Made by a program: the position numbers and the translations under genes. A stretch of DNA of 58,456 nt from Rhodospirillales bacterium (GTDB lineage Bacteria > Pseudomonadota > Alphaproteobacteria > Rhodospirillales > Magnetovibrionaceae), in assembly GCA_024653965.1 (NCBI GenBank), contig JANLGW010000057.1:1-58456 (forward strand), in the 5' to 3' direction. Under the pieces are notes generated by a model. That model saw only the letters and a program-made list of their open reading frames with translations, was not told where the DNA came from and did not search any database. Every line of letters starts with the position of its first letter. Position 1 is the stretch's first letter. Below are positions 529-4,950 of the stretch, in pieces.

Positions 529-1140
529 ATGAAAAAGTTTGAAACCTTCACCGGCATCGCGGCACCCTTAGCCATCCGCAACGTCGATACCGACATGATC
601 ATCCCTAAGCAGTTCTTGAAGACCATCAAGCGCGAAGGTTTGGGGGTCCACTTGTTCGACGAAATGCGCTACTTGGATGACGGTTCGGAAAACCCGGATT
701 TTGTGTTGAACAAACCCGCCTATCGCAAAGCGCAGATCATCGTTGCGGGCGATAACTTTGGCTGTGGTTCGTCGCGCGAACATGCGCCGTGGGCGTTGAA
801 CGATTTTGGCATTAGCGTGATCATTTCCACCAGCTTCGCCGACATCTTTTACAACAACAGTTTCAAGAACGGCATGCTGCCGATCCGCGTGGATCAAGAA
901 ACTTTGGACAAGTTGATGGATGATGCCGAGCGCGGCGCCAATGCGCGCCTTACCATCGATCTGGAAAACCAGACCATCAGCGGCCCCGATGGCGGCTCGG
1001 TGCATTTTGATATCGACCCGTTCCGCAAACATTGTTTGTTGGAAGGCCTGGACGATATCGGCCTCACCCAGCAAAAGGCCGACAAGATCGAAACGTTTGA
1101 AGACAAACAGAAGGCCAGTCAGCCCTGGCTCTTTGGTTAA
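529..1140 (+). CDS. leuD: 3-isopropylmalate dehydratase small subunit
   Basis: This is the swivel-domain partner of LeuC in the isopropylmalate isomerase step of leucine synthesis, and it acts in the cytosol. The 203-residue product is the normal length. It has the [13 protein letters not shown] start typical of LeuD and the substrate-loop motif [14 protein letters not shown] at about residues 77-90. The ATG follows the leuC stop by 5 bases. leuB follows after 13 bases, so leuCDB form one operon. The sequence contains nothing unusual. Confidence 0.97.
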
Positions 1141-1153
1141 GGAAACCGCCACC

Positions 1154-2263
1154 GTGTCTACACCAAAAAATATTCTCATGCTGCCGGGCGACGGCATCGG
1201 CCCCGAAGTCATGGGCGAAGTTGCGCGCATCATCACGTGGATGAACGACAAGCTGGGTTCGGGCTTCGTCGTTGAACAAGACCTGGTGGGCGGTTCGTGT
1301 TACGACGTTCACGGTTGCGCGGTGACCGACGCCACCATGGCCAAAGCCCATGCGGCGGACGCCGTATTGCTGGGCGCGGTGGGCGGGCCGAAGTGGGACA
1401 ACGTGGCGCGCGAGCATCGCCCGGAAGCGGGGCTGCTGCGCCTGCGCAAAGAAATGGATTTGTTCGCCAACCTGCGCCCAGCGCTGGTGTTCGATGCGCT
1501 GATCGATGCCTCGACGTTGAAACCCGAAGTGGTGCGCGGCCTTGATATCATGATCGTGCGCGAATTGACGGCGGGGGTGTATTTCGGCCAGCCGCGCGGC
1601 GAAGATGTGCGGGGCGGCGTGCGTTACGGCTTCGATACGCAAATTTATTCCCAGCCGGAAATCGAGCGAGTGGCGCGGGTGGCGTTTGAATTGGCGAAAA
1701 AGCGCCGTGGTAAGGTGATGTCGGTTGAAAAAGCCAACGTCATGGAATCGGGCGTGTTCTGGCGTGAAATCGTCACCGCGCTGCACAAGGCCGAATATCC
1801 GGACGTGACGCTCGGCCATATGTACGCCGACAATTGCGCCATGCAGTTGGTGCGCAACCCCGGCCAGTTCGACGTGATCGTCACCGACAACCTGTTTGGC
1901 GATATCTTAAGCGACTGCGCGGCGATGCTGACCGGCTCGCTGGGCATGTTGCCGTCAGCCAGCCTGGGCGCGCGCGATGCCAAAACGGGCAAAATTCCCG
2001 CCATGTACGAACCGGTACACGGTTCCGCCCCCGATATCGCGGGCCAGGGCAAAGCCAACCCGTTGGCGACGATCTTGAGCCATTCCATGATGCTGCGGTA
2101 TTCGTTCGACATGGCCGCCGAAGCCGACCGTTTGGACCAAGCGGTGCAAAACGTGCTGGCTAAAGGCCTGCGCACCGCCGACATCATGTCTGATGGCTGC
2201 ACCCTGGTTTCGACCTCGGGTATGGGTAATGCCGTGATTAAAGAGATGGAGGCGTTGGGTTGA
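1154..2263 (+). CDS. leuB: 3-isopropylmalate dehydrogenase
   Basis: LeuB oxidatively decarboxylates 3-isopropylmalate with NAD+, the third step of leucine synthesis. The protein starts with the [10 protein letters not shown] motif and has [11 protein letters not shown], the [10 protein letters not shown] helix, a metal-binding [10 protein letters not shown] segment and the NAD-loop [14 protein letters not shown]. It is 369 residues from a GTG start at 1154, preceded by an AAGGAAA ribosome site. A longer open frame begins at 920, but its extra 78 residues are simply leuD read out of frame. GTG therefore fits both family length and ribosome site. This is the last gene of leuCDB. Confidence 0.96.
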
Positions 2264-2275
2264 GCCTACAAACCC

Positions 2276-2304
2276 TTGCTTTCCCGCGACCAACGGCGTA
2301 GAAA
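2276..2304 (+). promoter_or_regulatory. Predicted sigma-70 promoter of the asd leader
   Basis: TTGCTT at 2276-2281 and TAGAAA at 2299-2304 are separated by exactly 17 bases. They lie just after leuB and about 29 bases before the leader-peptide ATG. Transcription would start near 2311, so asd would have its own promoter independent of leuCDB. This is a consensus-match prediction only. Confidence 0.5.
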
Positions 2305-2332
2305 ATGCGCACTGTTTTTGTAAGGACTTTCG

Positions 2333-2455
2333 ATGAGCCGTCTTGTGGCCCGTATGGAACCGACCTTCGCCCCGGGTGCGTGCGCTCGGGCGGCGGTTGT
2401 CCTTGCCGGCTCTTGGGCCAAAATCATCACCATTAAAACCAAAACCACCCGATAG
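2333..2455 (+). CDS. Putative Thr/Ile-rich leader peptide of an asd attenuator
   Basis: This is a 40-codon reading frame with an AAGGA ribosome site 6 bases before its ATG. It ends in the residues IITIKTKTTR and a TAG stop. The last ten codons hold four Thr and three Ile codons, plus two Lys. This resembles the control region of the E. coli thr leader peptide in kind, though not in sequence. The control codons overlap the first strand of a set of mutually exclusive hairpins immediately before asd. Asd makes the common precursor of Thr, Ile, Met and Lys, so sensing charged Thr- and Ile-tRNA makes biological sense. The peptide itself probably has no other function. Seen: codons, ribosome site and pairing. 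Inferred: attenuation. Confidence 0.7.
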   Translation: MSRLVARMEPTFAPGACARAAVVLAGSWAKIITIKTKTTR

Positions 2456-2518
2456 CGGGCGTTTGGTTTTGCAAAGATTGCAACCGGGCCCGCGGAAACA
2501 CCGCGGGCCTTGGGTTTT
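2435..2518 (+). promoter_or_regulatory. Transcription attenuator upstream of asd (alternative hairpins and terminator)
   Basis: Three pairings can be drawn by hand. 1:2 pairs 2435-2443 with 2462-2470 (AAAACCAAA/TTTGGTTTT), plus CCCG 2448-2451 with CGGG 2456-2459. 2:3 pairs GCGGGC 2455-2460 with GCCCGC 2488-2493, plus GG..TTGC 2465-2472 with GCAACC 2480-2485. 3:4 is a perfect 9-bp GC-rich terminator hairpin, 2487-2495 with 2501-2509 and loop AAACA, followed by TTGGGTTTT. Strand 1 lies on the Thr codons of the leader peptide. A ribosome stalled there would free strand 2 and favour the 2:3 antiterminator. The U-tract is interrupted by GGG, so the terminator may be leaky. Confidence 0.7.
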
Positions 2519-2562
2519 CAGGGCTCCGGCAACGCAGGCCCAGACACAGGAGAGAGACTATA

Positions 2563-3603
2563 ATGGCCAAAAAGGCTAAGGGTTTTAAAGTCGCGGTTGT
2601 CGGCGCTACGGGCAACGTAGGCCGCGAAATGCTGCAAACGATGGTCGAACGCGACTTCCCCGCTTCGGAAGTCGTGGCGTTGGCGTCTCACCGTTCGGTG
2701 GGCAAGGAGGTTTCCTACGGTGACGATCAGATCTTGAAGTGCCAGGATCTGGCGACCTTCGATTTTAAGGGCACCGATATCGTGCTTTCCAGCCCCGGGG
2801 CATCCGTATCGGCCGAGTTTTCGCCTAAGGCCGCTGCGGCGGGCGCGGTGGTGGTGGATAACACCTCGCACTTTCGCATGGATCCGAACGTGCCGTTGGT
2901 GGTGCCGGAAGTAAACCCCAAGGCCATCGCGGGTTACACCAAAAAGGGCATCATCGCCAACCCCAACTGCTCGACCATTCAGATGCTGGTGGCGTTGAAG
3001 CCGCTGCACGATCTGGCGACGATCAAACGCGTGGTGGTGGCGACGTATCAATCGGTGTCGGGCGGCGGCAAGGCGGCTATGGATGAACTGTTCAACCAGA
3101 CGCGCGGCGTTTATATGAACGAAAATGCCGAAAAAAATCGCCAAATATTCACCAAACAGATCGCGTTCAACGTCATTCCGCACATCGACAAGTTCATGGA
3201 TGACGGCATGACCAAAGAAGAATGGAAGATGGTGGTCGAAACCAAAAAGATTCTCGACCCCAACATCGAAGTGTGCGCGTCGTGCGTGCGCGTGCCGGTG
3301 TTCATCGGCCACTCCGAAATGGTCAACGTCGAATTTGCCAAGCCCATCACCGACGAACAAGCGCGGGAAGCGTTGCGCAAAGCGCCGGGCATTTCCGTAA
3401 TCGACCGTCGCGAAAACGAAGGCTATGTCACTCCGGCGGAGTGTGCGGGCGAGGATGCAGTGTTTGTGTCGCGTATCCGCAAGGACCCGTCGGTCAAGAA
3501 CGGCATCAATTTCTGGTGTGTGTCCGACAACCTGCGCAAGGGTGCCGCGCTCAACGCGGTGCAGATTGCGGAAATCTTAGTCAGCGATTATTTGGGCCAA
3601 TAA
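2563..3603 (+). CDS. asd: Aspartate-semialdehyde dehydrogenase
   Basis: Asd reduces aspartyl phosphate to aspartate semialdehyde with NADPH, the branch point to Lys/diaminopimelate, Met, Thr and Ile. The 346-residue protein has the dinucleotide motif VGATGNVG at residues 13-20. The catalytic cysteine is C136 in NPNCSTIQ, and the substrate-side histidine is H250 in IGHSE. Length is normal. The ATG follows a GGAGAGAG ribosome site. The gene lies about 300 bases after leuB, behind a leader peptide and attenuator, so it is probably regulated by amino-acid supply. A strong terminator follows. Confidence 0.97.
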   Translation: MAKKAKGFKVAVVGATGNVGREMLQTMVERDFPASEVVALASHRSVGKEVSYGDDQILKCQDLATFDFKGTDIVLSSPGASVSAEFSPKAAAAGAVVVDNTSHFRMDPNVPLVVPEVNPKAIAGYTKKGIIANPNCSTIQMLVALKPLHDLATIKRVVVATYQSVSGGGKAAMDELFNQTRGVYMNENAEKNRQIFTKQIAFNVIPHIDKFMDDGMTKEEWKMVVETKKILDPNIEVCASCVRVPVFIGHSEMVNVEFAKPITDEQAREALRKAPGISVIDRRENEGYVTPAECAGEDAVFVSRIRKDPSVKNGINFWCVSDNLRKGAALNAVQIAEILVSDYLGQ

Positions 3604-3680: not shown

Positions 3681-4232
3681 TCATTCAAATGAGATCGATG
3701 CCGATGGGGTGCGGGCGGTTTTGAGCGCGCCGCCCAGCGTTATGGCGTTGCGATCAAAACGACGATCCTGACCGTCGAACGGCATCATGCGCCGTCTGCG
3801 GTCGGGGCCGAAATAGTCGTCGTTGCGGATGAACGGGCGGGGTTTTTCGATGACGGATTGAATGCGGCGCATCAGATCGATGGGCGCCATGGGCTTGACC
3901 AGAAATTCATTTACCCCGGCATCGCGGGCTTCTTTGACCCGATCGAGATCGGAATACGACGACATCATGATGATGGGCAGGTATGGGTCGGGCGTGTCTC
4001 GCCCAGTGCGCGCCCAATGCGTGAAATGCAGGCCGCTGCGGGGAAACATCACCCAATCCGTCAACACGATGTCGGGTTTTTTGGCGATCACCTGATCGAT
4101 GGCATCGTCGCCATCCAAGGCTTCGCGCACGTTGCGCGCGCCGAAACATTCAAGAATGCGCACGCTGACGCGGCGGGTGAAATTGCAATCATCCACCACC
4201 AGCATAGAAATATTATGCAGATATCCGCTCAT
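3681..4232 (-). CDS. Single-domain response regulator with a conserved YFGPDRRRR tail (copy 1)
   Basis: This is a CheY-type receiver of 183 residues from the ATG at 4232; a TTG start at 4250 would add six residues but has no ribosome site. The acidic pair is D14/D15, the phosphoacceptor D59 (LTDWVM) and the conserved lysine K113 (LVKPM), so it should be phosphorylatable. Beyond the receiver, a basic tail contains YFGPDRRRR and no DNA-binding or enzymatic domain. The neighbouring gene upstream on the same strand is a paralogue with the same tail. Such stand-alone receivers signal through protein contacts. Partner kinase and output are unknown; none is encoded nearby. Confidence 0.88.
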   Translation of the reverse strand: MSGYLHNISMLVVDDCNFTRRVSVRILECFGARNVREALDGDDAIDQVIAKKPDIVLTDWVMFPRSGLHFTHWARTGRDTPDPYLPIIMMSSYSDLDRVKEARDAGVNEFLVKPMAPIDLMRRIQSVIEKPRPFIRNDDYFGPDRRRRMMPFDGQDRRFDRNAITLGGALKTARTPSASISFE

Positions 4233-4342
4233 TTTGGTCTTTTGCCCCAAAGAACCATCATTGTCCGGCGGTCATCCTACACCCGGATGCACATGCAGAC
4301 AATCGAAGGAAAAAAGGGCAGGGAAGCGTTAAGGTCCAGACC

Positions 4343-4858
4343 CTAATGGGCTTGCGGCGCTTCAACCGGGTCTTCGTCGCGGCGTTCCTCGCCTGGATGA
4401 GGCAGGGGGCGGCGGCGGCGGTCGGGGCCGAAATAGGCATCGGCGCGCACAAATTGGCGCGGTTTTTCAATCACCGCCTGAATACGCGCCAACAGCGACT
4501 TGGCGGAAATCGGCTTGGCCAGGAATTCGTTGATGCCCGCGTCGCGCGCCTGCATGACGTTGGCGATGTGCGAAAAGGCCGATACCATGATCACCGGTGT
4601 AAATGGCGCAGGGCTTTCTTTGGATTCCCGCAACCAGTGCACCAACTCCATGCCGTCCGTGGGTTTCATCATCCAATCGACGACGATGATGTCCGGTTTA
4701 AAGTTTTTGATCTCGGTCTTCGCAGTTTCGCCGTCGCGCGCTTCTTGAATATCGAGCGCGCCGAACTGCACCAAGATGCGGCGGATTAAGGTCCGAGAAA
4801 AAGCGTTATCCTCGACGATCAGGAATCTAATTCTCGATAAATAGCCAGTCTGGGCCAT
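4343..4858 (-). CDS. Single-domain response regulator with a YFGPDRRRR tail (copy 2)
   Basis: This is a receiver protein of 171 residues from the ATG at 4858, with AAGGA about 11 bases upstream; an ATG at 4903 has no ribosome site. The acidic residues are E16/D17, the phosphoacceptor D61 (VVDWMMKP) and the lysine K115 (LAKPIS). It aligns along its whole length with the next gene downstream, including DW-M-P-G around the phosphoacceptor, DAG-NEFL-KP and the YFGPDRRRR tail. The pair therefore arose by tandem duplication. Its extreme C-terminus is acidic and differs from copy 1. The partner is unknown. Confidence 0.88.
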   Translation of the reverse strand: MAQTGYLSRIRFLIVEDNAFSRTLIRRILVQFGALDIQEARDGETAKTEIKNFKPDIIVVDWMMKPTDGMELVHWLRESKESPAPFTPVIMVSAFSHIANVMQARDAGINEFLAKPISAKSLLARIQAVIEKPRQFVRADAYFGPDRRRRPLPHPGEERRDEDPVEAPQAH

Positions 4859-4950
4859 GCGTGTATTCGTCCTTCGGCTTTGGGCGGCGTCCGTCCGCTT
4901 CATTTATATTAGAAATGTTATACGAATGGCTGAAAGGGGCAATACTATAA

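Follow-up and report, generated by a model that had tools for sequence, protein, structure and literature searches.

Sequence evidence for a conserved, probable leader-peptide attenuator with threonine and lysine codons upstream of asd in Rhodospirillales

Introduction

How do Rhodospirillales adjust the expression of asd, the gene for aspartate-semialdehyde dehydrogenase, to the demands of several pathways at once? The product of Asd is the last intermediate shared by threonine, lysine (and with it cell-wall DAP), methionine and isoleucine, and lysine ranks among the main products that this step feeds. In Gammaproteobacteria the thr operon is controlled through a leader, thrL, that precedes thrABC. 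An attenuator of the threonine/isoleucine type had been predicted between leuB and asd in the window, the whole 58,456-nt stretch of Rhodospirillales DNA analysed here. We examined the features of this gap against shuffled sequences and against the upstream regions of asd in relatives, and we asked which amino acids its leader codons would report.

Results

Leader and RNA structures in the window

The features of the locus are collected in Table 1. In the window's own genome asd gave a single match, the sole copy found.

Table 1. Features of the leuB-asd region, in window coordinates; the regulatory elements are candidates.
Feature	Position	Strand	Evidence and remarks
leuB, 3-isopropylmalate dehydrogenase	1106..2263	+	NCBIfam TIGR00169, 1.8e-144; 5' neighbour, not needed by the element
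Putative leader promoter: -35 TTGCTT 2276-2281, 17 nt spacer, -10 TAGAAA 2299-2304	2276..2304	+	Family alignment
Shine-Dalgarno AAGGA of leader ORF	2322..2326	+	Sequence; AGGAC in 8/10 family sequences
Leader ORF, 40 codons, MSRLVARMEPTFAPGACARAAVVLAGSWAKIITIKTKTTR, ATG start, stop TAG 2453-2455	2333..2455	+	Sequence; Thr/Lys tails in relatives
1:2 hairpin, window and close relatives	2434..2471	+	Fold -15.1 kcal/mol; p 0.065 in window
Strand 2, 5' arm of predicted antiterminator	2455..2474	+	Core GCGGGC 2455-2460, first base = last base of stop codon
Strand 3, TTGCAACCGGGCCCGC, pairs with strand 2 and excludes terminator	2478..2493	+	2:3 fold against shuffles
Predicted intrinsic terminator 3:4, 10-pair stem, imperfect U-tract to 2518	2486..2510	+	Terminator scan and fold
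asd, aspartate-semialdehyde dehydrogenase	2563..3603	+	NCBIfam NF011456, 1.3e-155; TIGR01296, 6e-137

The promoter placed in the gap by the original prediction was borne out in part. A strict consensus scan of the window region returned no sites, whereas alignment by eye of ten sequences from the window's family revealed TTGC at the -35 position in all ten and, at -10, TA and then an A-rich run, again in all ten (exact TAnAAA in six). AGGAC lay 3' of the promoter in eight of them and was followed by the leader ATG.

The 40-codon leader with a Thr-rich tail was as claimed, read directly from the sequence: the tail is AKIITIKTKTTR, and its Thr, Lys and Ile codons occupy 2420-2449. Four Thr, three Lys and three Ile fall within the last 14 codons. 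When the leuB-asd gap was shuffled with dinucleotides preserved, a tail with at least four Thr and at least three Lys in the last 14 codons arose in 2 of 2000 shuffles, and one with at least four Thr alone in 41 of 2000.

A terminator scan recovered the predicted GC-rich 3:4 stem, with arms GGGCCCGCGG/CCGCGGGCCT, and the best hairpin 3' of the stop codon was better than 20/20 shuffles. The U-tract that follows is imperfect (CTTGGGTTTTC); some relatives have longer runs. The competing 2:3 pairing reached -22.2 kcal/mol, which none of 200 shuffles equalled, and the fold of 2400-2521 as a whole gave a z of -2.56, with 4/200 shuffles folding as well. No Rfam model matched the window at gathering score, and none of the four Rfam matches at E<=10 in 2250-2600 was a riboswitch, for lysine or of any other known kind.

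Other features near asd were noted in passing. By eye, loci L081-L085 seem to share one more GC-rich hairpin (GGGCCC...GGGCCC type), placed 3' of the terminator and ahead of the asd Shine-Dalgarno sequence, at about 2519-2550 in the window; this hairpin reached p<=0.05 in one of five loci tested, with p 0.27 in the window. On the minus strand 3' of asd, at 3681-4903, lie two adjacent ORFs of 189 and 186 aa that have the look of response regulators by eye and share a C-terminal YFGPDRRRR stretch.

Distribution among relatives

Searches located asd in 58 of the 60 relatives. Among 138 loci, 38 passed a leader rule that counted Thr only; 30 were kept to form alignment A1, from which model R1 was built, and eight were dropped by eye (L001, L002, L067, L080, L092, L094, L120, L123). 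One leader, that of L137, was located by hand. Thr-rich tails 5' of asd in the relatives include AKTTITKTTTRC, AKTKTTKTTTRC, KSTTTKTVKTAT and TGTTTTTKTKTVG, among others, and the leader of Magnetospirillum sp. UT-4 (L003) ends in VVTTKTGTTTTS.

Of the 58 asd loci from relatives, 32 scored at least 36 bits with R1, 28 of these being its own training rows. Within the window's family the order search matched 14 of 18 genomes; two of the four misses had no asd match and one had its asd cut at a contig end. Across the order, 170 of 297 genomes were matched at E<=1e-3, and 113 at 40 bits or more among the matches listed. The best 30 order loci (about 19 training rows and 11 new) all lay directly 5' of asd. 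At L092, which scored 23 bits, a convincing leader was absent and the locus was set aside.

In the class, R1 matched 58 of 385 genomes at E<=1e-3, mostly weakly. Ten of the 29 class loci L169-L197 adjoin asd, and nine of those ten have a Thr/Lys leader (one, L169, is a training row); L185, the asd-adjacent match with no such leader, was rejected. The other 19 loci, away from asd, were weak matches with no Thr/Lys run. ORFs in two of them, L175 and L186, passed a loose threshold and were unremarkable. We also drew a sample of 131 asd upstream regions from 170 class genomes with asd, ordered by asd similarity (one, L353, had almost no upstream sequence). The leader occurred in 11 of the 131, the window and one other member of the order included, compared with 1/131 reverse complements and a mean of 0.6/131 over ten shuffles; it was absent from the remaining 120. 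By these searches, the putative attenuator occurs often within the order and has a patchy distribution in the rest of the class.

The element did not depend on the neighbouring gene. Within the upstream sequence covered (up to 1500 nt), a co-directional leuB was found in 15 of the 30 A1 leader loci and not in the other 15; the partner of the element is therefore asd and not leuB. In nine close family members leuB and asd stood 237-363 nt apart; near relatives that have no leader often show a shorter gap (about 39 nt at L095 and 47 nt at L105, for instance). The two other genes searched, hom and ilvB, gave no sign of a wider regulon. Neither a Thr nor a Thr/Lys leader was found in 21 hom upstream regions of relatives (L247 had no upstream sequence), and no Thr- or Thr/Lys-rich leader in 30 ilvB upstream regions, and the idea of the leader as a regulon feature was dropped. 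ORFs upstream of hom at L230 and L234 end with at least four Lys and have no Thr run.

Two loci departed from the simple arrangement. One genome (G052) has two asd loci, L103 and L138, each with its own, differing Thr/Lys leader (SKRPTTTTTTPTG, AKTTTTTTKTTRV); duplication or contamination (3%) could account for the pair. At L111 (genome G046), a leader of Thr/Lys type, WVKTVVTTIKMTGR, lies at 851-964, about 540 nt 5' of asd with other sequence between, and the putative attenuator there may govern an inserted gene together with asd.

Control codons

Codon usage was summarised over the last 14 codons of 53 distinct leaders (54 in total), which are related by descent, so that the counts are not independent events. 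Thr accounted for 42% of residues, Lys for 18%, Ile for 4% and Met for 1%. Every one of the 53 leaders had at least one Lys, and 47 had at least two. Both Lys codons were used, AAA 81 times and AAG 54 times; the equally A-rich Asn codons appeared twice. Some of the class leaders had been chosen by a rule that counts Lys, and the 29 A1 leaders chosen by the Thr-only rule and trimmed by eye therefore form the cleaner set: Lys made up 17.7% of their residues and was present in 29/29. Five of the eight loci dropped by eye have Lys and three do not (L067, L092 and L123), which gives a worst case of 34/37.

For comparison we took, from each of 18 gammaproteobacterial thr leaders, the 14-codon window with the most Thr; these leaders came from 22 RF00506 matches over the cut-off in 398 genomes after four with fewer than five Thr were left out. 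Thr made up 48% of the windows and Ile 28%, and Lys was absent. The difference in Lys (0/252 gammaproteobacterial residues against 72/406 in the A1 leaders) gave a Fisher p of 7e-17, with the windows chosen differently in the two sets and kinship ignored.

The original prediction had called the attenuator a Thr/Ile type. Its Thr codons stand, and Ile is indeed frequent, mainly in the window's genus, where L081, L088, L090 and L137 carry two to four each; group-wide, however, the second codon is Lys. On this codon evidence, Thr/Ile is local to the window's genus and Thr/Lys is the general type.

Structures and geometry across leaders

In 49 of 54 leaders no more than 1 of 20 shuffles equalled the best hairpin 3' of the stop codon, and in 41 none did. 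Weak terminator hairpins, equalled by at least 2/20 shuffles, were those of L003, L130, L311, L342 and L350 (3-11/20 for the last three). The 2:3 pairing reached p<=0.05 in 38 of 54 leaders, and in 37 of the 44 that we term order-type (41 leaders that belong to the order or to the nearest titled contigs, together with L170-L172 from two other families of the class); outside this group it stood above shuffles in only 1 of 10 class leaders. The predicted 2:3 pairing was thus upheld both in the window and by its conservation. The 1:2 hairpin bearing the Thr codons, the protector in classical trp-type attenuators, fared differently: it is present but weakly supported in the window (p 0.065) and reached p<=0.05 in only 5 of 54 leaders, with a median p of 0.38. 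A trp-type model in which 1:2 is essential was dropped for that reason.

Strand 2 is mostly GCGGGC, a copy of strand 4, and each can pair with strand 3, GGCCCGC. Pairing was kept through sequence change in individual loci, as judged by inspection with no covariation statistic: at L121 the 2:3 stem pairs CGCGAGG with CCTCGCG, and at L137, a congener of the window, the 3:4 stem pairs CCCAC with GTGGG. Strand 2 is unchanged at L137, and 2:3 is weak there (p 0.245).

Strand 2 also keeps close to the end of the leader: of 45 anchored leaders, 39 have it beginning 2-5 nt from the stop codon's first base. With a ribosome footprint of 13 nt past the A site, an assumed figure, a modelled ribosome on the stop codon left a strong 2:3 pairing in 1 of 44 order-type leaders, and, with the same assumed footprint, one halted at or before codon -4 left it in 43 of 44. 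At each position from -3 to -10, 80-95% of leaders had Thr or Lys; the frequency was 52% at -11, 20% at -12, 36% at -2 and 7% at -1. Control codons therefore sit where a stall would give antitermination, and this geometry would explain how the switch can work without 1:2.

Discussion

The leader, its codon bias, the terminator, the antiterminator, their geometry and the aligned promoter all emerge from comparison of sequences. The leader and the 2:3 and 3:4 stems recur upstream of asd in relatives, and this comparison, proposed with the original prediction, strongly supports an attenuator with Thr codons. Taken together, the evidence makes it very probable that asd is governed by a ribosome-mediated transcription attenuator that would open when tRNA-Thr or tRNA-Lys is uncharged.

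From these features we infer ribosome stalling, termination and a response to each amino acid. Transcription would start just past leuB, and a ribosome would translate the 40-codon leader. With Thr and Lys plentiful, the ribosome would reach the stop codon, which abuts strand 2, and would cover GCGGGC there; strand 3 would then pair with strand 4, and transcription would end near 2518. A shortage of Thr or Lys would stall the ribosome about 4-11 codons earlier and leave strand 2 exposed, 2:3 would form, the terminator would be blocked and asd would be transcribed. The 1:2 hairpin would be an optional refinement in the window's family. This scheme predicts that an untranslated leader reads through in members that do not have 1:2.

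Were Thr alone sensed (or Thr with Ile), AAA and AAG would be merely an A-rich stretch, unstructured or pairing with strand 2, and would carry no lysine signal. In the window's family AAAACC of the leader does pair with GGTTTTG of strand 2; yet 1:2 is not conserved and Lys is present in every distinct leader, and an A-rich stretch as such sits poorly with the use of both Lys codons alongside near absence of Asn codons. The three Ile of the window tail, the greater abundance of Thr than of Lys, and the three Lys-free loci among the eight Thr-rich ones dropped by eye would all suit such a sensor. The total lack of Lys in the gammaproteobacterial thr windows (chosen differently, as noted) and the place of lysine in the pathway argue the other way, and on balance we regard a sensor blind to lysine as unlikely.

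The remaining alternatives concern the role of the element. The leader peptide might itself act, either in trans or by persisting as a small protein, with the terminator just ending a small mRNA. Precedents come from Sinorhizobium meliloti, in which the small protein SEP5 is described as translated, with a tagged form in the soluble fraction (accessible text of PMC10117765), and in which the trp leader peptide is reported to be active beyond its own operon (abstract of PMC7298713). The N-termini within the family look alike by eye (MS..LA), but outside the Thr/Lys tail the peptide varies freely between families and its stop codon keeps a tight spacing to strand 2, which makes a function of the peptide improbable. 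Still less credible is a chance low-complexity ACC/AAA repeat next to a leuCDB terminator. The element does stand directly 3' of leuB, and terminator-like sites do arise by chance, at a mean of 1.0 in shuffles of 2100-2700; but the element is kept in many genomes both with and without leuB 5', the 30 best order loci all precede asd, and the 21 hom and 30 ilvB upstream regions searched have no such leader. The element is best read as a genuine ribosome-mediated attenuator of asd, conserved among relatives and most likely sensing Thr and Lys.

If this is true, two products would set the branch-point enzyme through one RNA, without a protein regulator, and the cell would raise Asd when either Thr or Lys runs short. 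We lean towards the further view that the element is a bispecific Thr/Lys attenuator, a class of its own that reads two tRNAs at the aspartate-semialdehyde branch point in several alphaproteobacterial families. To our knowledge, no earlier leader-peptide attenuator has lysine as a cognate amino acid.

Among documented systems, a 2013 account of attenuators lists specificities for His, Leu, Thr, Trp, Ile/Val and Phe, with no Lys in the part available (PMC3766115). The leaders of alphaproteobacterial trpE (rnTrpL) and ilvB resemble the present one as leader ORFs before an amino acid gene, to judge from the accessible passages of PMC10117765 and PMC1273637, and differ in their amino acids and genes. 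The asd RNA motif of Lactobacillales, RF01732, shares the gene name and belongs to a different phylum (PMC2864571, in its accessible part); it gave no match in window positions 2250-2600 even at E<=10.

The original prediction knew of no attenuator of this type on asd in Alphaproteobacteria, a statement that one remark in the literature qualifies. Towards its 3' end, SEP5 of S. meliloti has six Thr and three Lys codons; it lies in the 5'-UTR of an 'aspartate dehydrogenase' gene, is called 'possibly a leader peptide' and is described as limited in its conservation to Sinorhizobium (accessible text of PMC10117765). That remark was the only trace of a Thr/Lys leader in the literature searched, a scope that excluded the survey of proteobacterial attenuators by Vitreschak et al. 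2004 (FEMS Microbiol Lett); the structure, breadth and mechanism of such an asd leader were not found in the same literature. SEP5 shares with the asd leader the Thr and Lys codons near its end and the 5'-UTR position, compared by description and not by sequence; RNA structures and mechanism are not given in the accessible text of PMC10117765. As described there, SEP5 is probably the same kind of element, and an asd attenuator would offer an explanation for this translated small protein.

The closest curated relative is the thr leader, RF00506, with which the asd leader shares a Thr-codon run in a leader ORF, a GC-rich terminator and the logic of ribosome stalling. RF00506 matched the window end to end at 2409-2517 with 29.8 bits (E 8e-4), below its gathering score of 55, and matched 3 of 16 relatives at E<=0.05 with 32.5-33 bits. 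The asd leader is thus of the same kind as the RF00506 Thr_leader and no member of it by the curated rule. It differs in its link to asd and in its second amino acid, Lys here and Ile in the Gammaproteobacteria, and would stand as an alphaproteobacterial counterpart to the textbook thr attenuator, on another gene and with another second amino acid.
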